Origin: Terebella lapidaria
Taxonomy: Eukaryota; Annelida; Polychaeta; Terebellida; Terebellidae
NCBI GenBank assembly: GCA_949152475.1
Contig: OX424570.1
Coordinates: forward strand, 20,022,694-20,086,693
Reading direction: 5' to 3'
Length of the DNA stretch: 64,000 nucleotides
Under the pieces are notes generated by a model. The model saw nothing but the letters and a program-made list of their open reading frames with translations. It had not been told where the DNA came from and made no database searches. Every line of letters begins with the position of its first letter. Position 1 is the stretch's first letter. The translations under genes and the position numbers were made by a program. Shown here piece by piece: positions 2,284 to 55,383 of this stretch.

Positions 2284-2444
2284 TCACTGTGAGGGTTGGT
2301 GATATGTGGTGAATTTTTCGAGACGTTCACAGATTTCACCCAGTTTTCGACGTTCCTCACTTTCGATGGAGTCATCTTCAAGTTTTCTGTTGACATGCCA
2401 TAGAACTGAGTGGCCTTTGGAATCCACAGCATTGACGTCAGCAC
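2284..2444 (-). CDS. Terminal exon with stop codon
   Basis: Acceptor CCGCAG at 2445-2450, phase 1, then GADVNAVDSKGHSVLWHV, a charged helix-like tail (EDDSIESEERRKLGEICERL) and TTYHQPSQ followed by TGA at 2284-2286. The first half begins another ankyrin repeat that is not completed, so this is a C-terminal capping segment. Possible poly(A) signals in sense (AATAAA) lie at 1722-1727 and 1703-1708. Confidence 0.75.
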
Positions 2445-5400
2445 CTGCGGATTATTTCCATACGAACTATCAATAAATGTCCATGAATAATTGTAATTGA
2501 CCCTGAACCGTGGAAAATACACATTCGATTACCTCTACCATGTTTTAGGGTATCTGATATCTGCTGAGAACCTTGTTAGGGAATAAGGTAATAACTACTG
2601 TTATACTGGTACTGTTATACGGAACTCAAATACACTCAAACCTAGCTTGAGCTAGCAGTGTTAAATGTCCTTTTTTGGGCGGGTTGCGTGCAACCAACCC
2701 GCCTATTAGATTGGCGTGTCCGTCTGTCTGTCCGTCCGTCCGTCCCTCCGTCCGTCAACAATTTCTTGTGAACGCGATAACTTACAAAGTTTTTAACGAA
2801 ATATCGCCAAAATCATACCAGAGGTACATCATGAGCAGATCTCGGAAAAGTTCGATGATGGGTGACCTTGACCTATTTTTCAGGTCGTGGCAGGACTTCG
2901 AACTTGACAATACATGAAAACAGGACTTTGTACCTTGTGAACGCGATAACTTACAAAGTTTTTAACGAAATACCGCCAAAATCATACCAGAGGTGCATCA
3001 TGAGCAGATCTCGGAAAAGTTCGATGATGGGTGACCTTGACCTATTTTTCAGGTCGTGGCAGGACTTCGAACTTGACAATACATGAAAACAGGACTTTGT
3101 ACCTTGTGAACGCGATAACTTACAAAGTTTTTAACGAAATACCGCCAAAATCATACCAGAGGTGCATCATGAGCAGATCTCGGACAAGTTCGATGATGGG
3201 TGACCTTGACCTATTTTTCAGGTGGTGGCAGGACTTCGAACTTGACAATACATGAAAACAGAACTTTGTACCTTGTGAACGCGATAACTTACAAAGTTTT
3301 CAACGAAATACCGCCAAAATCATACCAGGGGTGCATCATGAGCAGATCTCGGGCAAGTTCGATGATGGGTGCGTGCAACCAACCCGCCTATTAGATTGGC
3401 GTGTCCGTCTGTCTGTCCGTCCGTCCGTCCGTCCGTCAACAATTTCTTGTGAACGCGATAACTTACAAAGTTTTTAACGAAATATCGCCAAAATCATACC
3501 AGAGGTACATCATGAGCAGATCTCGGAAAAGTTCGATGATGGGTGACCTTGACCTATTTTTCAGGTCGTGGCAGGACTTCGAACTTGACAATACATGAAA
3601 ACAGGACTTTGTACCTTGTGAACGCGATAACTTACAAAGTTTTTAACGAAATACCGCCAAAATCATACCAGAGGTGCATCATGAGCAGATCTCGGAAAAG
3701 TTCGATGATGGGTGACCTTGACCTATTTTTCAGGTCGTGGCAGGACTTCGAACTTGACAATACATGAAAACAGGACTTTGTACCTTGTGAACGCGATAAC
3801 TTACAAAGTTTTTAACGAAATACCGCCAAAATCATACCAGAGGTGCATCATGAGCAGATCTCGGACAAGTTCGATGATGGGTGACCTTGACCTATTTTTC
3901 AGGTGGTGGCAGGACTTCGAACTTGACAATACATGAAAACAGAACTTTGTACCTTGTGAACGCGATAACTTACAAAGTTTTCAACGAAATACCGCCAAAA
4001 TCATACCAGAGGTGCATCATGAGCAGATCTCGGGCAAGTTCGATGATGGGTGACCTTGACCTATTTTTCAGGTCGTGGCAGGACTTCGAACTTGACAATA
4101 CATGAAAACAGGACTTTGTACCTTGTGAACGCGATAACTTACAAAGTTTTTAACGAAATACCGCCAAAATCATACCGGAGGTGCATCATGAGCAGATCTC
4201 GGACAAGTTCGATGATGGGTGACCTTGACCTATTTTTCAAGTCATGGCAGGACTTCGAACTTGATAATACATGAGAACAATGCCAATTCCTTCCACTAAC
4301 AGCCCTCCTCGATGCAACCCGCCCAATTGTCGCGGGCGCGACTTATACTTGTTTAGGAGTATACTAGTACTTTTCAGCAAATACACATTTGACCTATCAT
4401 TCTACCGTGTAATCCCAATGGCACAAACATATTATTTAAACATAATATGTGATGAAATTCAAAGGATTTTGCTATTATTTCAATAACATTATGGCTTACT
4501 CACCAAGTTCTAGGAGCCAGGTTGCTGTCTTTGCGTGTCCCCCTAGAGCTGCCATAGTCAAAGGCTTGTACACCCCGAGATCAACCCTAGCCCCGTGCCT
4601 GACCAACTCCTCAGCCACCTCGTGGTGACCATGGGCACATGCGCAGCACAGCGCCGTGAGGCCAGCTTTGTTCTTTGCATTCACATCAGTGCCTGGTATA
4701 AAAATGGTTAACCCAATGTATTATGATAAACCAATGGTTTTATTTACATCCAGACCTCAGACGTAATTGTTGGAATAACATGCACAGTAGAAACTACTCT
4801 ATTTTACACATTGTCTATTGCCCCCCCCCCCTGTCATGTTGGAATTCCGTGTTCAACCAGCGAGTCACACCTCATACCACCCCCCCCCCCACCCACACAA
4901 ACACACACAAACACACACACACACACACAGAGAGAGAGAGATGGGGGAATTATATGTATTCCCCTTTGCGCTTATATCGATATAATCTTTTCACTCATGG
5001 GTAAGTGGTGTAGAAGTTGTCTTGATTTTTACATACTTACTGGGGGTCAATGAAAATTTTACCATATCTGTCAATTTCTGCTCGAAATGTACCTACATGG
5101 TAATCCCAGAGCCAATCACAATGTGATTTTGAGTCTGATATAAGTGGCTACAATACACCCGGAGTCCTCTGGTTCAGCCCTCCAATAATATGTTATTTAC
5201 CCGTGAATATCAACAGAACCAATTTCTTAAATTCATTGAAATTTCTGATATGCTATCGTGGCCAGAATGATATTTTTGGGGTAAATTTACAACTTTTAAA
5301 AATTTCAGAGAAAGTTCCAGAAAAAAACTGTGTAAAAGGGCAGAAAAAATGTTTTTAATCCAGGTCAAGAGCATGTATGATATGGTTCAAATAAAAGCCA

Positions 5401-8400
5401 CCATTAGCTGTGCCTATATCCCGACACACCCACACAAATCCACACATATGACACATATCCTGACACATCCACATCTATTTCAGCTGGCAGGATGAACACA
5501 CATATTATGATATGAAAAAGTCTTATTCATTTTTTTGTTCAGATATACATTAACCAACTACATAATCATAGGTTAAAAGGTTAACATTGATAATCCTATT
5601 ATTATCCTCATTTTATTAAATGCTGTAAGTGCAAGTTTGTAGTGTGAAAGTCTCACCTTGTTCCAACAACCACTGTACTACTTGCATGTGTCCTCCAGTT
5701 GCTGCCGTCTCCAGAGCAGAATATCCTCCTTTCTCTATCTCTGCTCCACGAGACACCAACTCTTTTGCCATATCCAGGTGCCCTCTCCCACAGGCGTATG
5801 AGAGCGCTGTGAATCCGTGCTTGTCCTCAGCATTGACGTCAGCACCTGTAGCACACTGAGAATTACACTTGGGAAAATCTTGTGAATATTGCTACACTAT
5901 GTTTAGAACTTTATTTACATTAATTTTTATGAAGTGTGTACTATTAGGCGGCCGTTGATAATCATAGGTTGTCAGGTTAACATTGGTAATCATGTCATCT
6001 TCATACCATCCCCCCTCCCATCATCTACATCATCCTCCCTACCTCTCATCAACATCATCATCCCCCTCATCATTACTTGAGTGATCATTACTTGAGTGCA
6101 AGTTCGAAGCCTGACAAACTCACCTTGTTCCAACAACCACTGCACTACTCCCATCTTCTACATCATCCCCCCTACCTCTCATCAACATCATCATCCCCCT
6201 CATCATTACTTGAGTGATCATTACTTGAGTGCAAGTTCGAAGCCTGACAAACTCACCTTGTTCCAACAACCACTGCACTACTTGCATGTGTCCTCCCATT
6301 GCCGCGCTCTTCAGAGCAGGATATCCTCCTCTCTCTATCTCTGCTACCTGAGACACCATCTTGTTTGCCACATCCATGTGCCCTTCCAAGCAGGCTGCCA
6401 AAAGCGCTGTGAACCCGTGCTTGTCCTCAGCATTGACGTCAGCACCTGTAGCACAATGAGAATTACACATGGGAAAATCCCTTTATTATTGCTGTACTAT
6501 GTTTAGAATTGTGTTTACATTATTTTTGTATGGAGTATGTACTATTAAGCGGCCGTTGGTAATGATAGGTTATTAAGTTAACATTGATAATCATGTCATC
6601 TACATCATCATCATCCCCCTCATCAATAATAAGTGTTGTGAGTGCGAGTTCGAAGCCTGACAAACTCACCTTGTTCCAACAACCACTGCACTACTTGCAT
6701 GTGTCCTCCCATTGCCGCGCTCTTCAGAGCAGGATATCCTCCTTTCTCTATCTTTGCTCCCTGAGACACCAACTTGTTTGCCACATCCATGTGCCCTCTC
6801 CCACAGGCGGAAGAGAGCGCTGTGATCCCGTCCTTGTCCTCAGCATTGACGTCAGCACCTGTAGCACAATGAGAATTACACTTGGGAAAATCCTGTTATT
6901 ATTGCTGCACTATGTTTAGAATTGTATTTACATTATTTTTGTATGGAGTATGTACTATTATGCGTCCGTTGATAATGATAGGTTATTAGGTTAACATTGA
7001 TAATCATGTCATCTACATTACCATCCCCCTCATCATCCCCCTCATCATCATCCCCCTCATCAATAATAAGTGTTGTGAGTGCGAGTTTGAAGCCTGACAA
7101 ACTCACCTTGTTCCAACAACCACTGTACTACTTGCATGTGTCCTCCATATGCTGCCGTCTTCAGAGCAGGATATCCTCGTCTTTCTATCTCTGCTCCACG
7201 AGACACCAACTCTTTTGCCACATCCAGGTGCCCTTCCAAGCAGGCTGCCAAAAGCGCTGTGAACGCGTGCTTGTCCTCAGCATTGACGTCAGCACCTGTA
7301 ACACAATGAGAATTACAATTAAAAGATTTGTTATCATTTCTGTACTGTTCTATTGGCATCATCGAAATCTGGTTATCACCGGTAATAGGCTGATACATAC
7401 ATTACATCTGTATTAAGGATGTATCGATTATGTACTATTAGGTTACCCTGAAAATCATAGATTATAAGGTTAACAATATTTATCATTATCATTATTAGTA
7501 TGTTTTGCCGTGAGAGGAATTCCGCAGTGTGAAAGTCTCACCTAGTTCCAACAACCACTGCACAACTTCCACGTGCCCTTCCGAAGCTGCGCTCACTAGA
7601 GCCAGCTCTCCTACTTTCTCTATCTCTGTCCCCTGAGACACCAACTCTTTTGCCACATCCAGGTGCCCTTCCTGGCAGGCTGCAGAAAGCGCTGTGAACC
7701 CGTCCTTGTTCTCCGCATTGACGTCAGCACCTGTAGCACAATGAGAATTACAATCGAATATGTCTCCTTATTATTACTGCACTGCATTAGGAACTGCATC
7801 TGTATTATCAATGTGTCGATTATGTACTCTTGGACTACCGCTGATAATCAAGAGATTATCAAGTATAAAATGATTATCTTTATTATTTTTAGTTTCCATT
7901 GCTGTGGGAGGGAACTCGCAGTCAGAAAGTCTTACCCAGTTAGAACTGCATCTGTATTATCAATGTACTGATTATGTACTCTCGGGCTACCGCTGATAAC
8001 CAAGAGATTAACAAGTTGAAAATGATTATCTTCATCATCGTCAGTTTTTATCGTTGTGAGAGGAAACTCCCAGCCTGAAAGTCTCACCTTGTCCCAACAA
8101 CCAGTGCACAACTTCCATGTGTCCTCCAAGTGCTGCTCTCTCTAGAGCTGGATATCCTCCTTTCTCTATTTCTGCTCCCCGGGACACCAACAGTTTTGCC
8201 ACATCTAGATGCCCTCCCTGGCAGGCTACAGAGAAAGCTGTGTTCCCGTCCTTGTTCTCAGTATTGACGTCAGCACCTTGAGAATTACAATCGAATATGA
8301 TTCATTATTATTCCACTGTATTCAGAACTGCACCTGCATTAACGATGCATCGGTTATGTACTTTCAGGCTGCTGCTTATAGTCAAGAGATAATCTAGTTA

Positions 8401-11400
8401 AAATTGATCATCCTCATCATTGTCAGTTTTCATTGCTGTGAGAGGAAACTCGCAGCCTGAAAGTATCACCTTGTCCCAACAACCACTGCACAACTTCCAT
8501 GTGTCCTCCAAGTGCTGCCCTCTCCAGAGCCGGATATCCTCCTTTCTCTGTCTCTGCTCCCTGGGACACCAACAGTTGTGCCACATCTAGATGCCCTCCC
8601 TGGCAGGCTACAGAGAAAGCTGTGTTCCCGTCCTTGTTCTCAGTATTGACGTCAGCACCTTTAGAATTACAATCGAATATGATTCGATCAATAATGTATT
8701 TTTATTAGACTAAGTGTTGCACTATACTTTGAAATATATTTGTTTATACAACAACTATCTGTTATATTTCATGTATTATGACGGGTGCATAGAGTCAGGT
8801 AATCATCCAAATTATGATGTTGTTATTACAATATTGATGGGGACATTAGGGTTGGCGGTCGGGATTTGAGATTGAGTAAAGCCAGAATGAAATGTTTGGT
8901 TTTTTCCATAGTTTCAGGCTCTCCTGTTTTATTCTAGAGTTTAGTTTGGAAAAGCTAATTGTCCTCACTCAAATGGGTAAGTGCTACCGAACTCTCACAT
9001 AATGGTATTGATATTATTATCATGAGCATAATAACAAGACAATCATGACCAAGGTGCATCAATGGGGTTAAGCTGGTATCGCACCAGATAACGACCGCAT
9101 AGCGACTGTGACGACTACATTTTAGACGACTACCAGACGAATTCAAGCAATTTTTAGTCGAATGTGATCGATAAATAACGAAATTGCAGCGACATGTTTG
9201 TGACCCTTTGACAATAGTTAAAGAATCAGATCTTTACTCGGCGTCTTGTTGGCGATTTCCATATGAATATTCTCAGAGCATTCATATGACAGTGATTCAC
9301 AAGTCGTTAATCAGTCTCTAATGACGGGCGACCGCATTTCAACTGCAATCCAAACTTGATGAGAATGAAGAATGACATGCAACTGATTTCAGACTTGTTT
9401 ACGACTATCTACTGACGACTGGTCAGATGACGACTGGTTCCTCTTATTCTGTAATTGGTTGCTAACTATTTGCCATGCACTCGCCTAAAATCTTTATGAG
9501 ATGACTGGAACAGACTGGTAAACGGCGTGGTAGCTAAACATTGAAGACTACTTGCGAATCAAAAATTAGTGACTGATTAGAAATGAATACAGACAAATTA
9601 GTGACAAGTCTCTTCCTTGGCAAAGAAATTTTCTTGGAAGGCTTCTTGGAAGTCGAAATTGTTGACGTAATTGTTGGAACAACATGCACAGTAGAATGTA
9701 AGTATCAATCTATTACCACCCACACAGCCAAATTGTAAGAGACTACTCTATTTTACACATTGTCTATTGCCCCCCCCCCCCCTGTCATGTTGGTCCATGT
9801 TCAACCAGCGAGTCACACCCCACACCACCCCTCCCCCCCCCCTCACACACAGAGATAGGGGAATTATATGCATTCCCGTTTGAGCTTATATCGTTATAAT
9901 AGACTTTCACATTCCCATACCTTTTCACTCATGGGTAAATGATGTAGAGGTTGTTTTTCTGATATTCTATCGTGGCCAGAATTATATTTTTGGGGTAAAT
10001 TTACAACTTTTCAAAATGTCAGAGAAAGTTCTAGGAAAAACTGTGTAAAAAGGCAAGAAAATTGTTTTTAATCCAGGTCAAGAGCATGTATGATATGGTT
10101 CCAATAAAAGCCACCATTAGCTGTGCCTATATCCTGACACACCCACACAAATCCACACATATGTCACATATCCTGACACATCCACATCTATTTCAGCTGG
10201 CAGGATGAACACACATATTATGATATGAAAAAGTCTTATTCATTTTTTTGTTCAGATATACATTAACCAACTACATAATCATAGGTTAAAAGGTTAACAT
10301 TGATAATCCTATTATTATCCTCATTTTATTAAAAGCTGTAAGTGCAAGTTTGTAGTGTGAAAGTCTCACCTTGTTCCAACAACCACTGTACTACTTGCAT
10401 GTGTCCTCCCCTTGCCGCCCCTTTCAGAGCGGGATATCCTCCTTTCTCTATCTTTGCTCCCCGAGACACCAACTTTTTTGCCACATCCAGGTGCCCTCTC
10501 ACACAGGCGGAAGATAGCACTGTGACCCCGTCCTTGTCCTCAGCATTGACGTCAGCACCTGTAGCCCAATGAGAATTACACTTGAGAAAATCTTGTGAAT
10601 ATTGCTACACTATGTTTAGAACTTATTTACATCAATTTTTATGAAGTATGTACTATTAGGCGGCCGTTGATAATCATAGGTTGTTAGGTTAACATTGATA
10701 ATCATGTCATCTTCATTACCACCCCCCCCCCCCCCCCCTTCCCATCATCATCATCTTACCCCTCTCCCCCTCATCATCATCCCCCATCATCATCATCATC
10801 ATCCTCCTCCTCATCATTACTAAGTGTTGTGAGTGCGAGTTTGAAGCCTGACAAACTCACCTTGTTCCAACAACCACTGCACTACTTGCATGCGTCCTCC
10901 CATTGCCGCTCTCTTCAGAGCAATATATCCTCCTTTCTCTATCTCTGCTCCACGAGACACCAACTCTTTTGCCATATCCAGGTGCCCTCTCAAACAGGCG
11001 GAAGCTAGCGCTGTGGACCCGTCTTTGTCCTCAGCATTGACGTCAGCACCTGTAGCACAATGAGAACTAGATGCTTCCGGTCGCCTACGACCGCTTGGGT
11101 GTATCCCCCGTAGCCCTGTCATCTCTGTTGCCCCAAATATATCACTGTCAAGTGTGAAAAACTAGAGCAAGGGCTAAAAAAGACTACCAGAGAAATGTTA
11201 AATCTCAAGTCACAACTGTTTTCTTTTCCCCACCAAAATTGCTGCACTAATTTTCCGAGGTTATTGAAGGCCGAATTCAAAATCACCACTGAAATCTCTT
11301 TACATGTATGAATTTCCATTCGACATGTTTGATAAAATAACGAAAATACAGATAGATCAATCTTTTCACCAATTTATATTTCAACTCAGAATATTTTACA

Positions 11401-23400: not shown

Positions 23401-26400
23401 GTGTCCTCCCCTTGCCGCTCTCCCCAGAGCAGGATATCCTCCTTTCTCTATCTCTGCTCCCCGAGACACCAACTCTCTTGCCACACCCAGGTGCCCTTTC
23501 TGGCAGGCTACAGAGAGCGTTGTGGTGCCGTCCTTGTCCTCAGCATTGACATCAGCACCTGTAGCACATTGAGAATAACAATAACACAATTGTGATTATA
23601 ACTGTACTGTTTCATTGTGATCATCAAAATATGGTTATCACCGGTGAAAGGTTGATACATACATTACATCTGTATTAAGGATGTATCGATTATGCACTAT
23701 TAGGCTACCTGGAAAATCATAGATTATAAGGTTAACATTGATTATCATTATCATTTTTAGTATGTATTGCTGTGAGAGGGAATTCTGCAGTGTGAAAGTC
23801 TCACCTTGTTCCAACAACCACTGCACTACTTGCATGTGTCCTCCCCATGCCGCTCTCTCCAGAGCAGGATATCCTCCTTTCTCTATCTCTGCTCCCCGGG
23901 ACACCATCTCTCTTGCCACACCCAAGTGCCCTTCCTGGCAGGCTACAGAGAGCGCTGTGAAGCCGACCTTGTCCTCAGCATTGACATCAGCACCTGTAGT
24001 GCAATGAGAATTACACTTAAGAAAATCCTGTTATTATTGCTGCACTATGTTCAGATTTGTATTTACATTATTTTTGTATGGAGTATGTACTAATATGCGG
24101 CCATTGATAATGATAGGTTATTAGGTTAACATTGATAATCATGTCATCGACATTACCATCCGCATCATCATCATCATCATCATCCCCCTCATCATTACTA
24201 AGTGGTTCAGATAAAAGCCACCATTAGCTGTGCCTATATCCCGACACACCCACACAAATCCACACATATGACACATATCCTGACACACCCACATCTATTT
24301 CAGCTTACAGGATGAACACACATATTATGATATGAAAAATTCTTATTCATTTTTTTGCTCAGATATACATTAACCAACGACATAATCATAGGTTAAAAGG
24401 CCAACATTGATAATCATATCATTATCCTCATTTTATTAAAAGCTGTTCGAGGCTAAGCCGAGAAAGCCTTCGTTTCTAATAATGACCTGTGTCGAGCCCA
24501 ATATCTGACTCAATGGATGCCTGCCATTAGGTTATTATTGCAAATAATGACCTCCGTTGAGGTTATTCAACAAAAATAATAACCTCTGTAAAACAATGCA
24601 AGCATCCATTAAGTGTCCAAAATGTCAAACTCATCCATATAGTTTTGCGTAACTGTCCTGGCCATTATGGATTATGCACACACATCATTATATCTTCCAA
24701 TCCGTATACTCAGATCTTCATGGGTATAACTAATTTTGCAGATTATATAGGAAACATATCTCAGATATATAGTCAAAATGGATAGTACTGGGATCGTCAC
24801 CATGAACGTTAGGGGATTGCAATCAAAAAGTAAACGGCAAAAAGTGTTTGAATGGATTCGAGTACATAAATATGGCATTATATGCATACAAGAAAGCCAC
24901 TCAACAGCCGATAGTGAAAATACGTGGAAAAATTATTTTCAGGGAGACATAATATTTTCTCATGGAAAATCCAATGCTCAAAAAGTGATGATTTTATTTA
25001 ACCCCAGGTGCAACAAAGTAATACATGATAAATTTTTAGATCCAAGGGGCCGATATGTCATCCTTTATATTACCATTGATCATAAAAGGATCACGTTAGC
25101 TAATATATAAATTATGGTCCAAATCACGACAGTCCATCTTTTTTTGCAACTTATATGAGCTTATTGAAAATATTCCCAATGACAATCGTATTATATGCGG
25201 CGATCTTAATCATATACTGAATCCCGTTCCAGATAAACAAGGTGGTAGATCTGATCATGCCCACATAAAGGCCAGGACAGTTACGCAAAACTATATGGAT
25301 GAGTTTGACATTTTTGACACTTAATGGATGCTTGTATTGTTTTACAGAGGTTATTATTTTTGTTGAATAACCTCAACGGAGGTCATTATTTGCAATAATA
25401 ACCTAATGGCAGGCATCCATTACGTCAGATAATGGGCTCGACACAGGTCATTATTAGAAACGAAGGCTTTCTCGGCTTCGCCTCGAAAGTCCTTCGTTTC
25501 TAATAATGACCTGCGTCTCGCCCTCGGTCTCCAATACCAATAGGTATTGGAGCGCTCCTGGGCTTCAACTACTACGTTCATCCATCAGTGAAACACGCTC
25601 TTCGGACGTAGTTTTGTTTTAAATAATCGGTCAACTTGAAATTGTGTGTGTCTTAATTGGGTATCATGCCGTAATTTTTCACCAAATTTCAGAATTCTAT
25701 CCCGAAAATTGAAAAAATTGGCAAGCGTGTTTCACTGATGGATGAACTTGACTCTGGCTTCGGGGGAAGCGGGGGGGGGGGGTGGATTTGAAGGCGGTGG
25801 ATACAGGGGCGCGAAGGAATGGACGTGCGATTAACAAACAAGTTTAGAGCCGGATTATAACATTTTGCGGAGGAAAAACTACCGTATTATTGTAAAAGCA
25901 GATCTATCTAAATCCATGCAGATACTGAAAACAAACGACCCACGAGACACGCAGATGCCTTGCGAGGTTTCAGCGGAGGGGTGAAAGAGGAGGCAAATGT
26001 ATGATTCCGTCGATACTTGCTACATACACGCCCAACGTCATATCTAGGCCAGCCAATCAGGGCGCACAGGAAACTAAGTATTGATGGGGCCAATATTAAG
26101 AGAATCACAAGAAAAAAGCCATTTTTCGAACAAATTAATCTTCTACACGCATCCATTGGCATTGTAACTGATAGAGATGAACATTTCACACCTTCACAAA
26201 CGACCGTGTGCCGATCCGACCCGTGCTGGATTTTTTCTTCTGTTTTCTTACTTTCTGTCCATTCGAACGGACGGACGGAGGGACGGACATTTCGTCCTTT
26301 GGATCCCTATAGCTCATATCTGATGAGCTAAAACATACGCGAAAAATGTATTGACGGGTACCATGAAAACGGGTATTTTTTCACAATGAACAAACGGATT

Positions 26401-28651
26401 TTTTTCACCACATCCATATTTTTCGGAAAGCCGATACAATTCTGAAGATGATGATGTAGGGTGTGTTTTGTTATACCTCGGGTAGGGGTATCTCCTATTT
26501 CTAAGCCCCTTTTCCAGAATGGCCACTAACCTATATGGAGGCATGGCTTGTTCAGCAGCTACACACGTCATCACGTGGATCCGAGCTCGCTCCTAACAGA
26601 GCTCTATTATCACCATAGCAACCAGTGTTAGGAATTATAAGAAATTTACCAATTTTAAAATCTAGGTCGTCTACCACACCCTTCATCGTGATCATAGACT
26701 GTGCAGTATTAACATCACGAACTAGGATTTTTATCAATCATAGGCCTACATCTCCGTTGCTAAGGGGTTGCTTAAAAATTTTAATGGTTGCTAAGCTAAA
26801 CCAATATATGATACAAGTACTACAGCATTTTAACTCAGATATACCCATATGATAACTGCTAATTCATTTCAGATTAAACTATATATATTGTATATGGCTT
26901 TTGTTACCTTTTATCGTACTCGAAATATGTGGTATCCTTTGTCGTATTCTAATATTTGGTTGTTTCGTATTTTCGCAAACTGGTTGAATCGAATCTATTA
27001 TACATGCATTCAATGATCTTATAAATGAATATCCGTATATATTGGTTATCTGGTACGATTACTGAAATATATTTCAGGTAATACGTTTCCAATAGTATAT
27101 CTTTTTTGTTACTTTGACATCTGGTCCTTGTGGTAACATGTTCTGATCCTCAACTTTAATGGCCATTAGTTTCCATGGCAACAGATCGTAACTATGGCAA
27201 AAGTTCCAATATCTTTTCGAAAGTTATTGATGATGATTCCTTGGCATCTAAGTAATCATATGCAATTAAATGCACCTAAATAATCAGGTTATGTTGTTTT
27301 ATATGATACCATATGATTTCTGTAGGAAATCACTCCCATTTTCGATGCCTTTTTTCATAAATGACACCATGTTTTCATAAAGCCATAAAAAAAATTGCCC
27401 AGATATGCCAAGGTGGCATCTACCAGTTTATGTTAGCTGGTCAGTAAAGTTCACCTCTAATATTTATTTCTTAAATAAAATTGCATTAGTACGCACTTTC
27501 ACGCTTACTCCGATTTTACCACTTTTGCCCTCTGACTATAAAGCAAAAATTGAGTAAAGTTCATCGTTTCTAAGCTTCATGGCAAGTAGTGAAAAGTCTT
27601 AGTAAGTGATACTCACTCTTTGCCAATTTGAAATAATGGTCGTCAGTTTTCAAGTGATTCACAGACTTGCATTTTCATCAAATGATCACTGCCTAGAGCT
27701 TGGTTTAACTCAATATTTTTGAGCCATGGTCATGTATTATCGGTCATAATGTGTTTCTAATATATATGTACATTTCGGGTATATCTATATCGATCTATCA
27801 TTCACCTCTCTCAAATCTATTATTCACCTCTCTCAAGCAACATCCTGACTATTTGGAGATCTCCTTTCCGTGCTGTCTCTATCAGTAGATTCTTGTCTCC
27901 AAGATCCAGGTCTGCTCCGTGATCGATCAACATTTCAGCCACTGCCTCATGACCAGCTTCACGGGCAAAATGCAGTGCCGTGCCTGTCTTACCATCGACT
28001 TCACACTCCGTATTGACACTGGCACCTGAATATGTTTTGTCAAAATATATTATTGGCCTAAATCAGTCCTTTCTACATAATTCCATAACACTAAAATTGA
28101 TGATAACAAAATTATTACCATGATCGATCAACAACTTTGTTATTCCTAAGTGCCCATTCTCAGCTGCCGTCACCAACGGTTTTTTGTTTCCCAGTTCCAC
28201 ATCTGCTCCATGCTCGATCAGCAGTTTTGCCACAGCCTCGTGCCCGTTAGCACAGGCGGACCACAGAGCTGTGGCAGACTCAGCTCCAGGTTGACGCTCA
28301 ACGTTGACATTGGCACCTGTACCAGTTGTGTTACAATATAGGAAATCGGTTACGTGATACTCATGAGAACACAAGAAATTACGCTAGACCCTAAATGGTA
28401 GGACATGATTACCATGAACTATCATTAAGTTGGTTATATCCAGGTGTCCCTCCTGTGCTGCCGCCACCAGAGGTTTGATGTCTCCAAGTTCTGGGTCAGC
28501 TTCATGATTGACCAGGAGCTCTGCCACATCTACACTACCACTAGCACATGCGGCACATAGAGCTGTGATTATTTGGCCATCATCTTTGCTCTCAGCATTG
28601 ACAGCCGCACCTGAAACATTAGGCCTACTTGTTTTGTTATATGTAAATCGA

Positions 28652-28721
<70 letters not shown>

Positions 28722-30871
28722 GACCTCGCTCGAGTAGCAGCCTGGCTACATTCAAATGTTTTCCACGTGCAGCCACGACCAGTGGCTTGATGTCTCCGAG
28801 CTCCAGGTCTGCTCCATGGTCGAGCAGCACCACTGCCATGGTCACGTGACCAACATCACACGCAGCGCACAATGCAGTGACTGATAAATTATTGACACTG
28901 CATTTAGCATCGATATTAGCACCTGTAATCATAACAATAGTTTTGTCATAACATACTAAGTATGTCATATAATATACCTCCTACTCTCGTTATCACAGTA
29001 ATACAGATGAAATGAGATACATGTGGCCATAATAAAATACACAGAATTGCAAGCGACCAATACAGACCAACCTGACTCAATCAAGGCTTGAACTATCAAG
29101 ACCTGGCCCCATGACGAAGCTTCTATCAGAAGTGTGTCACGTTCCATGCTGATGTTCTCACTTTGCTCATTCTGAAAGACATAAGTATGATTTCTTACAT
29201 TTTTTGTCTTTATATTTGGTGTATGTGAGATACAAGGAGACGAAGATGAATCAATCCTATACCGAATGTGCACTTGCGTCCAACAATTATTTCATATGGA
29301 CATTTTTGCAGATCAATGGTAATGAGTCGTCCATGAATCCTCCACCGAAATAAGCCATATGTTTTAATGTTCATGTTGGAAACGTCACATAAATACATAT
29401 CATACTTTAGTAATCCCGAAGAACAAAAACATCTGAACAAAACCAATTGCAATATACCACATCATATATGTAAAATGTTGCTAACCTTATCAAACAGCTG
29501 ATGGATTAAAGCACACTTTGCTCTCATATCTCTCTTCAACTCCAGTTGCTTCTCCGCACAAAGCAGAACAGGTTTCGCCATGGCAAAGACATTGATGAGA
29601 CATCCAGTAATCAATGAATGTGGAATGTGTGATGATTGCAGATTAGCACAAATTGCAAATGTGCCAAGGACCAAGTTTCTGAAATCTTGTTGTGTGTCTC
29701 GGCCTTCTTGGAAGAAAATTGGTTCTTCTAATGATTTCGCAAGCAGTATATGCTTCAGGGCAGCGGCATTCAATGTGATATCTGCTTTCGTGCACTCTCC
29801 CAGTCTGCTTGCATCTTTCCAGGAGAGGAAACAATGAGCGAACCTCATAGATCTATTGAGGTTATCTACTGCTCTCTTCTGCTTAGCAGTTTCGAGTTCT
29901 TGTGCCAACTCAGTTTGAAGAGGTGTTTTGGTTTCGTGATCTGTGTGTGCGCTGTGATAGCTGACTATTTTGCAGAGAGCAAAAGCCATTTTGACCGATG
30001 AGTTGTCTGGTAGAGTGGAGAACAATTTTGCCTCAAGACGAGCTGTTGTCAGGAGCCATCCGTCATTTTTGATATCAGGTACCAAATGAATGTCTGTCTT
30101 CGATATTGCCTTTCGCGGCAGTGCTTGTTGCAAAGGCATCAATCTCGAACGAACATATTCTACCACTCCATCGTCTGCTCTCAGTTTGAAAGCCAATGTG
30201 AAGTCGATCGAAATGTCAATATCGCCTTCAGTCTTTGATAACAATACACCAGGCAATACGTTCACTACGTTTTGTGTCGAGTTTTTCTCTGTTGAGTACC
30301 TGAGCAGTATAGTGACTGCTGGCCCACTGTATCGTACTCCACTGAATTCAGGACTTCTGTAGCCACCATGCTGCACTGCTGCTGAACCAATGTGTGGACA
30401 GTTCCGCACAGCGGTCTCCACTGCATCAGCGAATTGATGAACTACTGACGATGGGAGTAACGTTTCGCCAGCTGTTGTGGAGATCTCGTATGTCTTCCCA
30501 TCAACTGACTTAGTAAACGTGAAATCTTCAGTGATGACATACAAAAAGTCCATCTCTGAACTCCGCCCCACGCGGCACTCGTCGGCGCAGCTTCCGACTG
30601 GCTCCAAGCTGCCTTTCAAGGGGAATGTTCGCAGGACTCTACGATGCGTATCATCTACAACATTCTCCACTTTGCTAATAACAGGATGATCACGGTCGAA
30701 TTTGACCAACCTTTTATGACGTGATTTCAAGTCGCCATGTGCCACGAGAGCACGTGCCATTATCCTCCCCTCCTTGAAATCCTGAGGTGTATATGGCTCA
30801 GAATGTGGCGGACCCATGTCACTGTCGTCACTTCGCAGAGCTGTGTAGAACAATTCTTCTGTTGTTTCCAT
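2284..30871 (-). CDS. cGAS-like receptor fused to a giant ankyrin-repeat exon array (whole gene model)
   Basis: Model of 38 coding exons read from splice borders and reading phase: nucleotidyltransferase exon 29486-30871, linker exon 29072-29171, four 198-nt ankyrin exons, 31 array exons of 189 nt, terminal exon 2284-2444. The first junction is phase 0 and all later ones phase 1; the sum is 8298 nt, an exact 2766 codons (2765 aa plus stop). The enzyme half belongs to the cGAS/Mab-21 family, which makes cyclic dinucleotide or similar second messengers after ligand sensing in the cytosol. Ankyrin repeats are protein-binding solenoids, so the array is plausibly the recognition or scaffold part (inference). 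No exon of the model contains an internal stop. Alternative inclusion of exons is possible. A SAM exon at 44857-45331 may be the true 5' end. It could also be transcribed as several shorter isoforms or split into more than one gene. Confidence 0.75.
2677..4324 (+). mobile_element. Non-autonomous element loaded with 169-bp tandem repeats (family A)
   Basis: The ends are GGGCGGGTTGC at 2677 and its reverse complement at 4314-4324. Just inside the left end is a palindrome (GGTTGCGTGCAACC), then GTCCGTCTGTCTGTCCGTCC, then TTTCTTGTGAACGCG. The body is about nine units of a 169-bp repeat containing GTGACCTTGACC. A 681-bp block (about 2684-3364) is duplicated at about 3365-4045, including the GTCCG motif, so the head of the element sits internally as well. 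The reading frame slips by one base per unit, so it does not encode a repeat protein. It lies in the last intron of the ankyrin gene. Confidence 0.7.
4504..4692 (-). CDS. Array exon 31 (divergent, last ankyrin pair)
   Basis: 189 nt, phase 1-1, acceptor TACCAG and donor GTGAGT. It reads GTDVNAKNKAGLTALCCAC, AHGHHEVAEELVRHGARVD, LGVYKPLTMAALGGHAKTA, ending WLLELG. It keeps LG..KPL like exons 3-5 but has the 30-residue second repeat of the array. It shares little DNA identity with its neighbours, so it was probably not part of recent expansion. Confidence 0.8.
4745..5640. repeat. Segmental duplicate, copy 1 (intron)
   Basis: Sequence from GACGTAATTGTTGGAATAACATG through poly-C, CA/GA microsatellite and TTCAGCTGGCAGGATGAAC recurs at 9662-10345 with internal deletions. 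Its last about 240 bp recur again at 24206-24450. Each copy sits beside an array exon, so the blocks moved together with ankyrin units. Confidence 0.7.
4880..4943. repeat. Poly-C, (CA)n and (GA)n microsatellites
   Basis: Run of C, then CACACA with AAACAC interruptions, then GAGAGAGAGA. The copy near 9830-9850 retains only a short remnant. Confidence 0.8.
5657..5845 (-). CDS. Array exon 30 (A type)
   Basis: EDKHGFTALSYACGRGHLD, MAKELVSRGAEIEKGG, YSALETAATGG, WLLEQG. Confidence 0.8.
6124..6149 (-). pseudogene. Remnant of a duplicated array exon (3' end only)
   Basis: The donor and the last about 26 nt of an exon (TTGTTGGAACAAG|GTGAG in sense) are followed on + by intron sequence. The whole block with the upstream CATTACTTGAGTG repeat recurs intact about 133 bp to the right as part of the 6257-6445 unit, so this is an incomplete local duplication. 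Confidence 0.6.
6257..6445 (-). CDS. Array exon 29 (A type)
   Basis: EDKHGFTALLAACLEGHMD, VANKMVSQVAEIERGG, PALKSAAMGG, WLLEQG. SQVAE replaces the conserved SxGAE turn. Confidence 0.8.
6670..6858 (-). CDS. Array exon 28 (A type)
   Basis: EDKDGITALSSACGRGHMD, VANKLVSQGAKIEKGG, PALKSAAMGG, WLLEQG. Close relative of array exon 12 and of the reversed copy at 19668. Confidence 0.8.
7107..7295 (-). CDS. Array exon 27 (A type)
   Basis: EDKHAFTALLAACLEGHLD, VAKELVSRGAEIERRG, PALKTAAYGGHMQ, WLLEQG. Confidence 0.8.
7542..7730 (-). CDS. Array exon 26 (mixed type)
   Basis: AENKDGFTALSAACQEGHLD, VAKELVSQGTEIEKVGE, LALVSAASEGHVEVVQ, WLLELG. It combines A-type ends with the ELALVSAAS core of B exons. Confidence 0.8.
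7936..7945 (-). pseudogene. Minimal exon remnant
   Basis: A GGAACTCGCAG-type intron block and a donor-like CTTAC|CCAGTT (on +) are followed at once by upstream-intron sequence, with the remaining about 180 nt of the exon missing. The spacing suggests a unit collapsed by deletion. Confidence 0.4.
8088..8276 (-). CDS. Array exon 25 (A-like)
   Basis: VNTENKDGNTAFSVACQGG, VAKLLVSRG, PALERAALGGHMEVVH, WLLGQG. The acceptor is TCTCAAG, weaker in pyrimidines than the other units. Confidence 0.75.
8470..8658 (-). CDS. Array exon 24 (A-like)
   Basis: VNTENKDGNTAFSVACQGG, VAQLLVSQGAETEKGG, PALERAALGGHMEVVQ, WLLGQG. Donor GTGATA and acceptor CTAAAG differ from the array standard. It pairs with array exon 25, 382 bp away. 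Confidence 0.75.
8710..9660. other. Unique intronic insertion between array units
   Basis: No exon or coding region is recognised and there is no match to other parts of the window. GACGACT-like motifs recur (about 9105-9130, 9405-9440), which hints at a degenerate inserted element, but no clean inverted ends were found. Confidence 0.35.
9662..10345. repeat. Segmental duplicate, copy 2 (intron)
   Basis: Matches 4745-5640, shortened by deletions (for example around 9950). It is followed directly by array exon 23, just as copy 1 is followed by array exon 30. Confidence 0.7.
10370..10558 (-). CDS. Array exon 23 (A type)
   Basis: EDKDGVTVLSSACVRGHLD, VAKKLVSRGAKIEKGG, PALKGAARGG, WLLEQG. It belongs to the segmental duplicate of the exon at 5657-5845, sharing the left-hand flank. 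Confidence 0.8.
10861..11049 (-). CDS. Array exon 22 (A type)
   Basis: EDKDGSTALASACLRGHLD, MAKELVSRG, GGYIALKRAAMGGRMQVV, WLLEQG. Its acceptor is intact although the intron just upstream in transcript order carries the 11067-13723 insertion, which ends only 17 bp from the exon. Confidence 0.75.
11411..12300. repeat. 121-bp tandem repeat, about 8 copies
   Basis: CAAGTTGAAATTCAAAG recurs at 11538, 11659, 11779, 11900, 12021, 12142 and 12263, a step of 120-121 bp. It lies inside the family C insertion. Confidence 0.85.
12310..13055. repeat. About 130-135-bp tandem repeat, about 6 copies
   Basis: GTCAATAATAGACTTAACTA with ACCTTGTTGAGC recurs at roughly 130-135-bp steps. One copy carries an extra 33-bp internal duplication near 12850-12885. 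Confidence 0.8.
13313..13660. repeat. 174-bp tandem repeat, two copies plus partial
   Basis: TCACAAGCCATGTGTCTC occurs at about 13313 and 13487. The long open frame through it exists only because 174 is a multiple of three. Confidence 0.8.
13990..14178 (-). CDS. Array exon 21 (A type)
   Basis: EDKDGITALSSACGRGLRD, VAKKLVSQGAEIEKGG, PALKRAARGG, VVRWLLEQG. GLRD replaces the consensus GH[LM]D. A 2.66-kb insertion lies in the intron between this exon and array exon 22. Confidence 0.8.
14503..14691 (-). CDS. Array exon 20 (A type)
   Basis: EDKDGSTALASACLRGHLD, MAKELVSRG, PALKTAATGGHMQ, WLLEQG. First repeat shared with array exon 22. Confidence 0.8.
14939..15127 (-). CDS. Array exon 19 (A type, altered start)
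   Basis: The exon begins CTGCTGACATC, so the split codon becomes GCT and the protein starts AADIN instead of GADVN. It continues VAKDLVSWGAKIEEGG, PALKRAARGG and ends LLELG. Loss of the turn glycine may weaken this repeat. Confidence 0.8.
15373..15561 (-). CDS. Array exon 18 (B type)
   Basis: EDKYGFTALSSACGRGHLD, VAKELLSQGAAIEKGG, KLALVRAASGGYMEVV, RLLLEQG. The KELLSQ segment is intermediate between A (KELVSR) and B (LLSQ). Confidence 0.8.
15862..16050 (-). CDS. Array exon 17 (A type)
   Basis: GADINAEDKDGFTALSEAC, EEGHLDVAKELVSRG, ERGGYPALKTAATGGHMQ, WLLEQG. Confidence 0.8.
16296..16484 (-). CDS. Array exon 16 (B type)
   Basis: EDKDGFTALSAACGRGHMD, VAKVLLSQGAAIEKGG, KLALAWAASGGYMEVV, RLLLEQG. 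Donor GTGCGA. Confidence 0.8.
16734..16922 (-). CDS. Array exon 15 (A type)
   Basis: Same protein as array exon 14. The flanking introns differ from that copy by only a few bases (for example GTTCCAAG versus GTTCGAAG just downstream of the donor). Confidence 0.8.
17172..17360 (-). CDS. Array exon 14 (A type)
   Basis: EDKDGFTALSAACQEGHLG, VARELVSQGAEIERGG, PALKSAARGGHMQ, WLLEQG. The protein is identical to array exon 15, 438 bp away, and the introns are nearly identical too: the most recent duplication in the array. Confidence 0.8.
17642..17830 (-). CDS. Array exon 13 (A type)
   Basis: EDKDGFTALSAACQEGHLD, VAKELVSRGAEIEKGG, PALKTAATGGHVQVVQ, WLLEQG. Confidence 0.8.
18079..18267 (-). CDS. Array exon 12 (A type)
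   Basis: EDKDGITVLSSTCGKGHMD, VANKLVSQGAKIEKGG, PALGSAAWGGHMQ, WLLEKG. Confidence 0.8.
18516..18704 (-). CDS. Array exon 11 (A type)
   Basis: GADINAEDKDGFTALSAAC, HKGHLGVARELV, ERGGNPALKSAAMEGHMQ, WLLEKG. GGN and MEG replace the usual GGY and MGG. Confidence 0.8.
18950..19138 (-). CDS. Array exon 10 (B type)
   Basis: GADINAEDNDGFTALSSAC, GRGHMDVAKFLLSQGAAI, GGELALVRAALGGYMEVV, RLLLEQG. It lies in the loop between the two arms of the inverted duplication. Confidence 0.8.
19259..19419 (+). pseudogene. 5'-truncated array exon copy in reverse orientation (on +)
   Basis: It begins abruptly at GGC TTC ACA GCG (the GFTAL part), lacks the acceptor and first codons, and runs to LLEKG with an intact GTGAG donor at 19420. 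It is nearly identical to array exon 11 read in reverse and marks the left breakpoint of the inverted duplication. Confidence 0.75.
19668..19856 (+). pseudogene. Array exon copy in reverse orientation (complete, on +)
   Basis: A full 189-nt exon with GCTACAG acceptor and GTGAG donor but on the plus strand, reading GADVNAEDKDGITALSSAC, NQLVSQGAKIEKGG and WLLEKG. It lies in the inverted segment and matches array exon 12 closely. In the sense of the host gene it is antisense and cannot contribute protein; no plus-strand gene around it is visible. Confidence 0.75.
20227..20415 (-). CDS. Array exon 9 (A type)
   Basis: GADINAEDKDGFTVLSVAC, EEGHLDVAKELVSRG, PALESAAWGGHMQ, WLLEKG. It is the last exon before the inverted duplication at 19259-20062. 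Confidence 0.8.
20661..20849 (-). CDS. Array exon 8 (B type)
   Basis: EDNDGFTALSSACGRGHMD, GGELALVRAALGGYMEVV, RLLLEQG. Donor GTGTGA. Confidence 0.8.
21145..21333 (-). CDS. Array exon 7 (A type)
   Basis: GADINAEDKDGFTVLSVAC, EEGHLDVAKELVSRG, PALKRAAMGGHMQ, WLLEKG. It is 918 bp from its near-identical counterpart array exon 9. Confidence 0.8.
21579..21767 (-). CDS. Array exon 6 (B type)
   Basis: EDNDGFTALSSACGRGHMD, GGELALVRAASGGYMEVVRL, LLEQG. Forms an A/B dimer with array exon 7. Confidence 0.8.
22064..22252 (-). CDS. Array exon 5 (A type)
   Basis: EDKDGTTTLSVACQKGHLG, PALKRAAMGGHMQ, WLLEKG. Same first repeat as array exon 2 but a different second repeat, consistent with exon-internal recombination or conversion. 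Confidence 0.8.
22500..22688 (-). CDS. Array exon 4 (A type)
   Basis: GADINAEDKDGFTALSEAC, EEGHLGVARELV, ERGGYPALERAAWGGHMQ, WLLEQG. The start is GADIN because the exon-start CpG reads TG on + (GACATC in sense). Confidence 0.8.
22934..23122 (-). CDS. Array exon 3 (B type)
   Basis: EDNDGFTALSSACGRGHMD, LLSQGAAIEKGGELALAWA, then GGYMEVVRLLLEQG. Donor GTGCGA. Confidence 0.8.
23370..23558 (-). CDS. Array exon 2 (A type)
   Basis: EDKDGTTTLSVACQKGHLG, then PALGRAARGGHMHVV and WLLEKG. The TTTLSV segment is shared only with array exon 5, which suggests these two are recent relatives. Confidence 0.8.
23805..23993 (-). CDS. Array exon 1 (A type), two ankyrin repeats
   Basis: Starts GADVNAEDKVGFTALSVAC; middle GHLGVAREMVSRGAEIEKGG; then PALERAAWGGHMQ; ends WLLEQG. 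It is the first array exon in transcript order. The downstream intron begins with the block typical of B units, so this is a hybrid unit. Confidence 0.8.
24206..24445. repeat. Segmental duplicate, copy 3 (partial)
   Basis: Corresponds to about 5388-5625 (GATAAAAGCCACCATTAGC through CATTTTATTAAA). It marks the boundary where the array meets unrelated sequence. Confidence 0.65.
24446..25487. repeat. Fold-back element with 218-bp inverted arms
   Basis: Arms 24446-24663 and 25270-25487 are near-perfect reverse complements, beginning TTCGAGGC(T/G)AAGCCGAG. The centre is a LINE endonuclease fragment, and the right arm itself continues that endonuclease frame (VTQNYMDEFDIFDT). Confidence 0.75.
24778..25322 (+). 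pseudogene. L1/Tx1-like LINE endonuclease fragment
   Basis: The frame opens MDSTGIVTMNVRGLQSKSKR, then GIICIQESHS and ILFNPRCNK, the N-terminal half of an apurinic-type endonuclease (N, then E in QES). After small insertions near 25105-25140 the frame shifts and resumes as IICGGDLNHILNPVPDKQGG, the GDxN motif. No reverse transcriptase follows, so this is a dead fragment. Confidence 0.65.
25488..27827. other. Intronic sequence without recognised genes
   Basis: It contains a short inverted repeat, GTTCATCCATCAGTGAAAC at about 25576-25599 and its complement at about 25727-25751, a poly-G run near 25771, and GGACGGACGGAGGGACGG near 26271. No exon with ankyrin signature was found. In the model this is part of the intron between exon 6 and array exon 1. 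Confidence 0.4.
27828..28025 (-). CDS. Exon 6: two ankyrin repeats (33+33)
   Basis: 198 nt, phase 1-1, acceptor ATTCAG and donor GTGAAT. It reads GASVNTECEVDGKTGTALHF, AREAGHEAVAEMLIDHGADL, then LGDKNLLIETARKGDLQIV and ends MLLERG. The last 15 nt of the exon with its donor are repeated about 27 bp further downstream (near 27801), offering a decoy donor. It is the last exon before a roughly 3.8-kb intron that leads into the 189-nt exon array. Confidence 0.8.
28119..28316 (-). CDS. Exon 5: two ankyrin repeats (33+33)
   Basis: 198 nt, phase 1-1. It reads GANVNVERQPGAESATALW, then SACANGHEAVAKLLIEHGAD and LGNKKPLVTAAENGHLGI, ending LLIDHG. Donor is GTAATA. These repeats match the ankyrin consensus (G-x-TAL-xxA-xxGH-xxVA-xLL-xxGA) better than the array exons do. 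Confidence 0.8.
28413..28610 (-). CDS. Exon 4: two ankyrin repeats (33+33)
   Basis: 198 nt, phase 1-1, acceptor TGTTTCAG and donor GTAATC. It starts GAAVNAESKDDGQIITALC, continues with ASGSVDVAELLVNHEADPE and ELGDIKPLVAAAQEGHLDI, and ends MIVHG. The LGDIKPLV segment in the second repeat is shared with exon 3 and, as LGNKKPLV, with exon 5. Confidence 0.8.
28652..28720. repeat. (ATT)n microsatellite abutting a splice donor
   Basis: About 23 trinucleotide units end four bases from the donor of exon 3, so in sense the intron starts GTCAATAATAATAAT. Confidence 0.9.
28725..28922 (-). CDS. Exon 3: two ankyrin repeats (33+33)
   Basis: 198 nt, phase 1-1. It starts GANIDAKC and contains TALCAACDVGHVTMAVVLL, then HGADLELGDIKPLVVAARG and ends RLLLERG. 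The donor is GTCAAT, a weak site directly followed by an (AAT)n microsatellite (28652-28720), so splicing here may depend on repeat length. Acceptor is GATTACAG. Confidence 0.8.
29072..29171 (-). CDS. Exon 2: linker plus ankyrin half-repeat
   Basis: 100-nt exon, phase 0 in and phase 1 out, bounded by a TTTCAG acceptor and a GTTGGT donor. It reads NEQSENISMERDTLLIEAS then WGQVLIVQALIESG, the second half of an ankyrin repeat. It converts the frame of the enzyme exon to the phase-1 frame used by all following ankyrin exons, so it is the adaptor between the two parts of the protein. Confidence 0.75.
29486..30871 (-). CDS. Exon 1: cGAS/Mab-21-like nucleotidyltransferase domain
   Basis: 462 codons from the ATG at 30871, which has a strong initiation context (A at -3, G at +4). 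The frame is open further upstream to about 30946 without another ATG. Residues G93-S94 followed by E106-x-D108 match the G[GS]...[DE]h[DE]h nucleotidyltransferase signature. D223, in an acidic strand reading DIDISIDFTLAF, sits where the third metal-binding aspartate of cGAS lies. SGPAVT near residue 182 and the segment DGWLLTTARLEAKL are typical of Mab-21 proteins. I see no clear H-C-C-C zinc thumb like that of vertebrate cGAS. The exon ends in phase 0 at a GTTAGC donor (29485). An acceptor-like AG at 30913-30914 or 30916-30917 would join in frame to the upstream SAM exon. Family assignment is firm; enzymatic activity is inference. Confidence 0.85.
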
Positions 30872-36421: not shown

Positions 36422-36663
36422 GTGCAGTCAAGCACCCAGCGGCGGAATACATGGCTGTGGCCCTCCCATGTTAAATATCCATAAGAAAACAGAGAAATCG
36501 ACTTTGTTAAAAAAATATTGTTCACCAATTAATTCAGCTTGCAAAATCAGTTTGGTTTTGATCCCGTTCTCTCTTTAAATTGCATTAGAAAACACAACGT
36601 GTCTCATTCTTTTCGGTATAGTCCAATATGTTGGCGAATATACTAAATGAACGGACATTAGGC

Positions 36664-46747: not shown

Positions 46748-48246
46748 GGTTACCGGACAATGTTTAATATTTTAGATGTTAGCCAGGTCACTGGTTAAAT
46801 TCAAGGTGAAGAGAATATTCAGCATATATAATATTAAGCATATATCATGTCCACAGTTGATTGCTAAGCTGTAAATTCAATAATCAGAGAGATATTAGCA
46901 ATTTTGTGTTGTGGCCTTGAAAATGAAGGCAAAGGTCAAATTCAAGGTCATCAAAATATTCAGTGTATATCATGTTCTATATGTCCACAATTGATTCCCA
47001 AGCCATGCAGTCAATAGAGGAGCAAGATAAGAGCCAGTTTGTCCTTGGACCTTGCAAATGATGTCGGAGGTCAAACTCAAGGTCACGAGAATTTTCAGCA
47101 TATATCATTTCCTATATGTCCACAATTGATTCCTAAGCTGTAAAATCGATAATAAGTGAGATATTAACCATTTCGTCCTGTGACCTTGAAAATGAGGTCA
47201 AAGGTCAAATTCAAGGTCATGACAATAGTTTGCATATATCATTTCCTATATGTTCATTCCTGATTCCTAAGCTGTAAAGTCGATAACAAGCAAGATATTA
47301 GCCATTTTGTCCTATAACCTTGAAAATGGGGTCAAAGGTCAAATTTAAGGTCATCAGAATATTCAGCATATATCATTTCCTATATGTCCACAATTGATTT
47401 CTAAGCTGTAGAGTCGATAATAAGCGAGATATGAGCCATTTTGTCCTATAACCTTGAAAATGGGGTCAAAGGTCAAATTCAAGGTCATCAGAATATTCAG
47501 CATATATCATTTCCTATATGTCCACAATTGATTCCTAAGCTGTAGAGTCGATAATAAGCGAGATATAAGCCATTTTGTGCTCTGACCTTGAAACTGAGGT
47601 CAGAGGTCAAATTCAAGGTCACGAGAATATTCAGCATATATCATTTCCTATATGTCCACAATTGATTCCTAAGCTGTAGAGTCGATAATAAGCGAGATAT
47701 AAGCCATTTTGTGCTCTGACCTTGAAACTGAGGTCAGAGGTCAAATTCAAGGTCACGAGAATATTCAGCATATATCATTTCCCATATGTCCACAATTGAT
47801 TCCTAGTCTCTAATCTCAATATTTAGTGAGATATTAGGCATAATGTGTCCCATTATAAAGCATAGGAGAATTTAACATGGGAAAGTCCCATTTGGGACGA
47901 GTTTAGGCCAACTTCGAGCGATTCAAGCGCAACGAAATTTATGGACATCATAGGAGTACATTAGAAGAGTGTTATGTATCAAAAAGAAAAAAAGTTACTG
48001 AACAGATTTTGAGAAAATGGCCGCCGAAGTCCATATCAGGCATTTTTCGTCAAAAACGGCCGCCATTTTGAAAATAATGCGAAAATCAAAAAACTAAAAA
48101 ATACCTCCTTCTTGAAATATTTTTAATTATTTTTGTGCAAAATTTTAGAAAAATTCGCCCGTAAACAAAAAAAGATAAAAATGTGGACGACGGACGCCGG
48201 ACGCAACGCCATGCCAATAGGTTATCGGACCATAGGTCCGGTAACC
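46748..48246. mobile_element. Hairpin-ended tandem-repeat element, family B copy 1
   Basis: Ends GGTTACCGGAC are flanked by TA on both sides (46746-46747, 48247-48248). The right end folds as TAGGTTATCGGACC / GGTCCGGTAACCTA and is preceded by GTGGACGACGGACGCCGG. The body is eight 134-bp repeats. Confidence 0.7.
46840..47835. repeat. 134-bp repeat carrying AGGTCA motifs, about 8 copies
   Basis: CCACAATTGATTCC recurs every 133-134 bp (47387, 47521, 47655, 47789). Each unit has GGTCAAAGGTCAAATTCAAGGTCA or a near variant, that is a direct repeat of AGGTCA spaced by one base in several copies, followed by TCAAGGTCA. Confidence 0.8.
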
Positions 48247-55258: not shown

Positions 55259-55383
55259 CTATGATAATAGATGAAATATACATATAATAATTGTAATTTT
55301 ATTCATCTAATAGAGACAGAAATATGAACACCATCTAAAAATATTAATGTGAGCGGTATAAAAACGTTCCTTCATCATTTCAG

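Follow-up and report, generated by a model that had tools for sequence, protein, structure and literature searches.

In the window, that is, the whole 64,000-nt stretch of DNA analyzed here, 38 exons on the minus strand (30871 to 2284) form a single reading frame in which old ends surround a duplicated core of ankyrin exons; this core carries no stops or length changes, and its changes are concentrated at binding-type positions. On balance, we lean toward reading the gene as a giant, probably cytosolic cGLR-type receptor with ~70 ankyrin repeats, the binding surface of which is diversified in the germline. The product of this one gene would begin with a Mab-21/cGLR-type nucleotidyltransferase at the N terminus and continue as a solenoid of ~70 ankyrin repeats. 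The repeats would bind a variable protein ligand, and ligand binding would switch on second-messenger synthesis by the enzyme. All same-strand exons would probably be included by default, and diversity would be made in the germline through unequal exchange, segmental duplication and selection acting at the binding face, with individuals differing in the number and order of their repeats.

The joined exons total 8,298 nt, or exactly 2,766 codons, and the terminal stop is the only one in this frame. In order, the exons measure 1386, 100, 4 x 198, 31 x 189 and 161 nt (Table 1). All of the repeat exons (35/35; 4 x 198 and 31 x 189 nt) have AG/GT borders, are open and are in phase 1-1. A first-pass annotation had described an enzyme exon followed by these two sets of phase 1-1 exons and a stop exon, together adding up to an exact number of codons, and rebuilding the gene from the DNA reproduced this arrangement. 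The gene ends were inferred from the sequence, with the start ATG at 30871 and AATAAA at 1727 and 1708. On the minus strand of the 19.7-kb array region, 32 open 189-nt AG..GT[AG] frames were found, compared to 1 and 3 frames for the length controls of 192 and 186 nt in the same region and strand. The plus strand of the array region held 2 open 189-nt frames, 50 two-base-block shuffles of the region gave a mean of 0.84 (maximum, 6), and the minus strand from 31 to 64 kb held 0.6 per 19.7 kb. As ~1 such frame is therefore expected by chance, the observation of an exon array is confirmed.

Table 1. Positions in the window of the exons and of the inverted segment
Feature	Position	Strand	Basis
E1 enzyme exon, Mab-21/cGLR-type nucleotidyltransferase (probable), 462 codons, ends phase 0	29486..30871	-	frame + Pfam profile
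E2 linker exon, 100 nt, phase 0 to 1, first half ankyrin repeat	29072..29171	-	
E3, 198 nt, poor donor gtcaat (GAG/gtcaat)	28725..28922	-	
E4, 198 nt	28413..28610	-	
E5, 198 nt	28119..28316	-	
E6, 198 nt	27828..28025	-	
E7, 189 nt, type A	23805..23993	-	
E8, 189 nt, type A	23370..23558	-	
E9, 189 nt, type B, weak donor	22934..23122	-	
E10, 189 nt, type A	22500..22688	-	
E11, 189 nt, type A	22064..22252	-	
E12, 189 nt, type B, weak donor	21579..21767	-	
E13, 189 nt, type A	21145..21333	-	
E14, 189 nt, type B, weak donor	20661..20849	-	
E15, 189 nt, type A	20227..20415	-	
E16, 189 nt, type B, weak donor	18950..19138	-	
E17, 189 nt, type A	18516..18704	-	
E18, 189 nt, type A	18079..18267	-	
E19, 189 nt, type A	17642..17830	-	
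E20, 189 nt, type A, coding sequence = E21	17172..17360	-	
E21, 189 nt, type A, coding sequence = E20	16734..16922	-	
E22, 189 nt, type B, weak donor	16296..16484	-	
E23, 189 nt, type A	15862..16050	-	
E24, 189 nt, type B, weak donor	15373..15561	-	
E25, 189 nt, type A, junction codon Ala (not Gly)	14939..15127	-	
E26, 189 nt, type A	14503..14691	-	
E27, 189 nt, type A	13990..14178	-	
E28, 189 nt, type A	10861..11049	-	
E29, 189 nt, type A	10370..10558	-	
E30, 189 nt, type A, donor score 2.65	8470..8658	-	
E31, 189 nt, type A	8088..8276	-	
E32, 189 nt, type A	7542..7730	-	
E33, 189 nt, type A	7107..7295	-	
E34, 189 nt, type A	6670..6858	-	
E35, 189 nt, type A	6257..6445	-	
E36, 189 nt, type A	5657..5845	-	
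E37, 189 nt, divergent (52% to consensus), end-cap-like, type A by default	4504..4692	-	
E38 stop exon, 161 nt	2284..2444	-	
Inverted segment, one intact and one truncated ankyrin exon	19260..20035	+	98.3% identity to 17900-18675

The window (40.4% GC, zero N) looks like animal DNA, containing introns, satellites and remnants of transposons. Much of the last intron is taken up by a 169-bp satellite (2765-4279; 8.9 copies, 91%). Further tandem arrays occupy 11354-13026 and 46785-47841, and an array related to these is found at 53640-54019. Directly beside the E3 donor begins an uninterrupted (ATT)23 microsatellite (28653-28721). An RVT_1 reverse transcriptase spread across two frames, a BESS-motif frame and a DDE_Tnp_4 transposase (34852-36427, 54691-55302 and 55328-56335) are probable transposon remnants near the gene. 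Rfam and tRNA scans gave no matches.

With two repeats per exon plus the linker, the array encodes ~71 ankyrin repeats; a simple motif count, which misses a few, gave 67 inner helices. Old, divergent ends flank a young core that was recently and repeatedly duplicated. The four 198-nt exons share 40 to 54% protein identity with each other, while the 189-nt exons average 82% identity to their consensus (73 to 94% for E7 to E36, and 52% for E37). At least 85% identity to the consensus was observed for 17 of the 31 array exons, with a unit of 63 residues, compared to 33 residues and 85% identity in the criterion used for fungal NLR-type repeats. Recent direct duplicates inside the core extend over 1,322 bp (96.7% identity) and 841 bp (95.4%), and several array exons are 95 to 100% identical to their nearest neighbor. 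Nevertheless, 30 of the 31 exon peptides are distinct, the exception being the pair E20 and E21. Exons lying further apart in the array tended to be slightly less identical (r = -0.19; permutation p = 0.007). The exons fall into 25 of type A and 6 of type B, and no two type-B exons are adjacent. Exon length is fixed at 189 nt in 31/31 cases, whereas the introns vary, with 24 of the 30 array introns being under 330 nt (193 to 324 nt) and 6 being longer. A search with the ankyrin part of the protein (model residues 463 to 880) returned 6,705 proteins at an E value of 0.001; the best 120 of these 6,705 were all ankyrin proteins, and among these 120 none carried PF03281 and none had a leading repeat period of 63 residues (lags 28 to 139).

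Changes among the 31 189-nt exons were counted on a FastTree tree and comprised 223 non-synonymous and 110 synonymous changes (overall omega, 0.77), counts that gene conversion may inflate. No stop codons were seen, versus ~14 expected from 333 random changes. Designed ankyrin repeat proteins (DARPins) are randomized at what we take to be positions 2, 3, 5, 13, 14 and 33. These positions were applied after the per-codon variability table had been seen, and alignments made afterwards against DARPin chains are, in our reading, consistent with this mapping. At the 10 DARPin-type codons, 74 non-synonymous and 12 synonymous changes were counted (omega, 1.92), compared to 150 and 97 at the other 52 codons (omega, 0.60). 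The two classes differed significantly (Fisher p = 9e-6; site permutation p = 0.01 with 31, 30 or 24 exons), and the omega of 1.92 exceeded neutrality less clearly (one-sided p = 0.018). Across the 31 exons, the 10 positions display 25 different signatures. The most variable codons were 49, 19, 16, 45, 46, 20, 28 and 11, of which codon 28 lies in the outer helix. For a set of inner-helix codons (15, 16, 19, 20, 45, 46, 49 and 50) picked post hoc from the per-codon table, the permutation result was 0/20,000. A coarse split of groove versus outer helix showed no excess of change (Fisher p = 0.61); here, the groove was defined as finger loops plus inner helices following the available text of PMC4358367, with residue borders set in this analysis. 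Judging by the substitution pattern, we take the binding face to have been freed from constraint and to be probably diversifying. The earlier suggestion that the exons present different ankyrin surfaces is thereby substantiated, in that they differ at predicted ligand-facing positions.

The enzyme is probably of Mab-21/cGLR origin, a divergent nucleotidyltransferase with putative catalytic activity. The Pfam Mab-21 profile matched the whole enzyme with an E value of 0.0015 (19 bits) and the enzyme core with 3.1e-4 (21.3 bits), compared to a curated cut-off of 24.1 bits. The match spans profile positions 65 to 134 of 197 and thus part of the domain, and no Pfam match was obtained for the C-terminal half of the enzyme (helix-bundle region). 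The cGLR motif is given in the available text of PMC9980059 as h[QT]GS, 8 to 20 residues, [DE]h[DE]h, 50 to 90 residues, and h[DE]h. In the enzyme, PVGS (91-94; GS at 93) is followed after 11 residues by EMDF (106-109), so that spacing and acids fit, with V in place of Q/T. The third acid could be provided by IDI after 108 residues or IDF (222-224) after 112, versus the published 50 to 90, and the enzyme contains no h[DE]h within 50 to 90 residues past EMDF. Two of the three elements of the motif (PMC9980059) therefore deviate, with the acidic residues present, and because of the third-acid spacing we do not class the enzyme among proven cGLRs.

Protein searches with the enzyme scored 7,993 candidates, with none at an E value of 0.001, and 610 candidates, with none at an E value of 10. 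A PDB sequence search found none at 0.001, and the weak rows up to 10 (7 and 4) included no cGLR. NCBIfam and PADLOC returned nothing, and 14 and 19 pattern matches in viral and prokaryote contigs contained no relatives. AlphaFold2 modeling of the enzyme alone, without relatives, gave no confident fold (pLDDT, 35.5). The computed pI was 6.8 for the enzyme and 5.0 for the repeat part, compared to values of >8.5 reported for nucleic-acid-sensing cGLRs in the available text of PMC9980059. A nucleic-acid ligand is therefore not favored; however, enzyme residues 45 to 462 alone have a pI of 8.3.

The protein could also be a catalytically dead Mab-21-like domain on a giant scaffold, with the ankyrin solenoid binding its partners constitutively and no second messenger being made. 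Huge ankyrin scaffolds are common, which adds to the plausibility of this alternative. It would also account for the V for Q/T before GS and for the 112 instead of 50 to 90 residues to the last acid, and a figure legend in PMC9980059 describes Mab21L1/2/3 as lacking a predicted functional active site. However, the E-M-D-F pair and the later I-D-F acid are retained, and recent amplification with changes at binding positions would be unusual in a static scaffold, and we regard such a scaffold as unlikely, if still deserving of attention. A different question is whether enzyme and repeats belong together. E2 codes for both helices of the first ankyrin repeat, which continues into E3, and the Ank_2 profile matched the stretch from the linker to E5 (E value, 1e-37) as well as E7 to E9 (5e-49) and E37 to E38 (3e-13). 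As the linker carries the first half repeat and the stretch to E5 scores as ankyrin, enzyme and array appear to be tied into one gene. The fusion proposed in the first-pass annotation was therefore upheld, with E1 being joinable in frame to the array via E2. Two genes or two transcripts, that is, a single-exon enzyme terminated by its own stop (29462) plus an ankyrin protein made separately, would fit the enzyme frame reading 7 codons past the E1 donor to that stop, the ATTAAA at 29368 in the first intron and the moderate donors of E1 (3.16) and E2 (2.04; donors were scored with a matrix whose possible maximum is 8.63). Furthermore, an in-frame ATG at codon 9 of E2 could start an ankyrin-only protein. 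Yet E2 is preceded by an acceptor and reads on in phase with E1 from its first codon, ahead of that ATG, the first half repeat sits directly behind the enzyme, and the introns on either side of E2 are short (E1-E2, 314 nt; E2-E3, 149 nt). We judge a full separation to be quite improbable; a short enzyme-only transcript using the stop at 29462 and the ATTAAA at 29368, and an ankyrin-only product, are possible in addition.

Combinatorial splicing, in which cells would splice in varying selections from the 35 phase-symmetric exons and thereby build a somatic receptor repertoire, was the use of the array originally proposed. All repeat exons are indeed in phase 1-1, and the donors of the six type-B exons (E9, E12, E14, E16, E22 and E24) read gtgcga or gtgtga and score 3.4 to 3.8, compared to 8.34 for 17 of the 25 type-A exons; E30 (2.65) and E3 (-0.25) are weak as well. 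We rejected phase symmetry as evidence of skipping, because duplicating one phase 1-1 exon together with its introns yields it; as the array grew by such tandem duplication, its symmetric phases are expected and uninformative on exon use. The type-B exons are close copies of one another, and their weak donor thus probably reflects one event. With 17/31 array donors near consensus, and with many exons being near-copies such that skipping would often change little, the claim that exon skipping creates many receptors is not supported, and we consider such a repertoire improbable. A further argument in its favor comes from the inverted segment, which the first-pass annotation had missed. It is a 776-bp copy of about two exons within the 1,088-nt intron between E15 and E16 (19139-20226), in which one exon is intact (19668-19856) and the other (~19260-19418) lacks its start. 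If real, this copy would give the pre-mRNA two arms that pair in a long duplex around E16 and conceal splice sites of E17 and E18; the predicted folding energy was -673 kcal/mol for 1,101 nt with part of both arms, a value not calibrated against shuffles of equal length. Should exons be skipped at all, the first candidates to consider would be the type-B exons, E3 and the hairpin-enclosed E16 to E18. The inverted copy may also be an assembly error, and more broadly the array could be mis-assembled, so that its number of copies is incorrect and the inverted segment spurious, as near-identical tandem units and palindrome-like inverted copies are classic trouble spots. However, all array exons except E20 and E21 differ, the inverted copy is 98.3% rather than 100% identical, and all borders and frames are intact. 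An artifact of this kind is very improbable in our judgment, and the array itself would remain real even if its length had to be corrected.

The receptor reading can be extended, tentatively and with more doubt than confidence on our part, to a hypervariable, paratope-like ankyrin array on an animal second-messenger sensor. Such an array might be rebuilt by exon duplication and exchange and differ between individuals, perhaps also between transcripts (via weak donors and the pre-mRNA hairpin), which would make the gene an animal counterpart of fungal hypervariable NLRs built on cGAS-type chemistry. The cGLR ligands known so far, according to the available text of PMC9980059, are nucleic acids sensed via the enzyme itself. 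A cGLR whose large repeat domain was recently amplified and diversified at its surface would suggest that animals, like fungi with their NLRs, link second-messenger enzymes to evolvable modules for protein recognition as well, and the ligands of fused cGLRs would become testable through the proteins that the variable repeats bind.

Dscam1, an immune-related gene, likewise contains tandem arrays of homologous exons. The array described here differs in giving no sign of mutually exclusive choice, in having exons that are all joinable in frame, and in being known from DNA alone. For Dscam1, 38,016 isoforms are cited in the available text of PMC9013439. Among cGLRs, 87% are listed without an extra domain and some with ankyrin or TPR modules; in three from the coral Stylophora pistillata, the fusion partners include ankyrin repeats and death domains (available text of PMC9980059). 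The initial statement that no such system had been described was therefore too strong, as cGLR-ankyrin fusions are published for S. pistillata (PMC9980059). These coral proteins likewise combine a Mab-21/cGAS-type enzyme with ankyrin repeats in one animal protein, but neither amplified near-identical repeat exons nor diversified binding positions are described for them in the available text of that paper, and our enzyme differs from the cGLRs published there in being off-motif in 2/3 elements. In the literature searched, which covered few subscription papers, no cGLR with an ankyrin array this large or with diversified repeat exons was found.

Fungal NLRs with WD, ANK or TPR repeats, such as those of Podospora, also combine an effector module with near-identical repeats, variable concave sites and expansion by repeat exchange. 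In their ankyrin repeats, variability lies on the concave surface (inner helices and hairpins) and repeat number is polymorphic; for highly conserved repeats of this kind, a figure of 0.8% is given in metazoa (available text of PMC4986451). In contrast to these fungal genes (PMC4986451), the present one is an animal gene with a nucleotidyltransferase instead of NACHT/NB-ARC and with a two-repeat unit that forms its own exon, and it is known from one haplotype. Designed ankyrin repeat proteins share with the array a fixed framework and variable beta-turn and inner-helix positions (PDB chains; available text of PMC8683736). The array differs from them in belonging to a natural gene, in its second repeat being shortened to 30 residues and in having extra variable positions, e.g., 16, 28, 45 and 46. 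Compared to these systems, what is new here is the combination of old ends around a recently amplified core, the absence of stops, and amino acid changes concentrated at DARPin-type positions.
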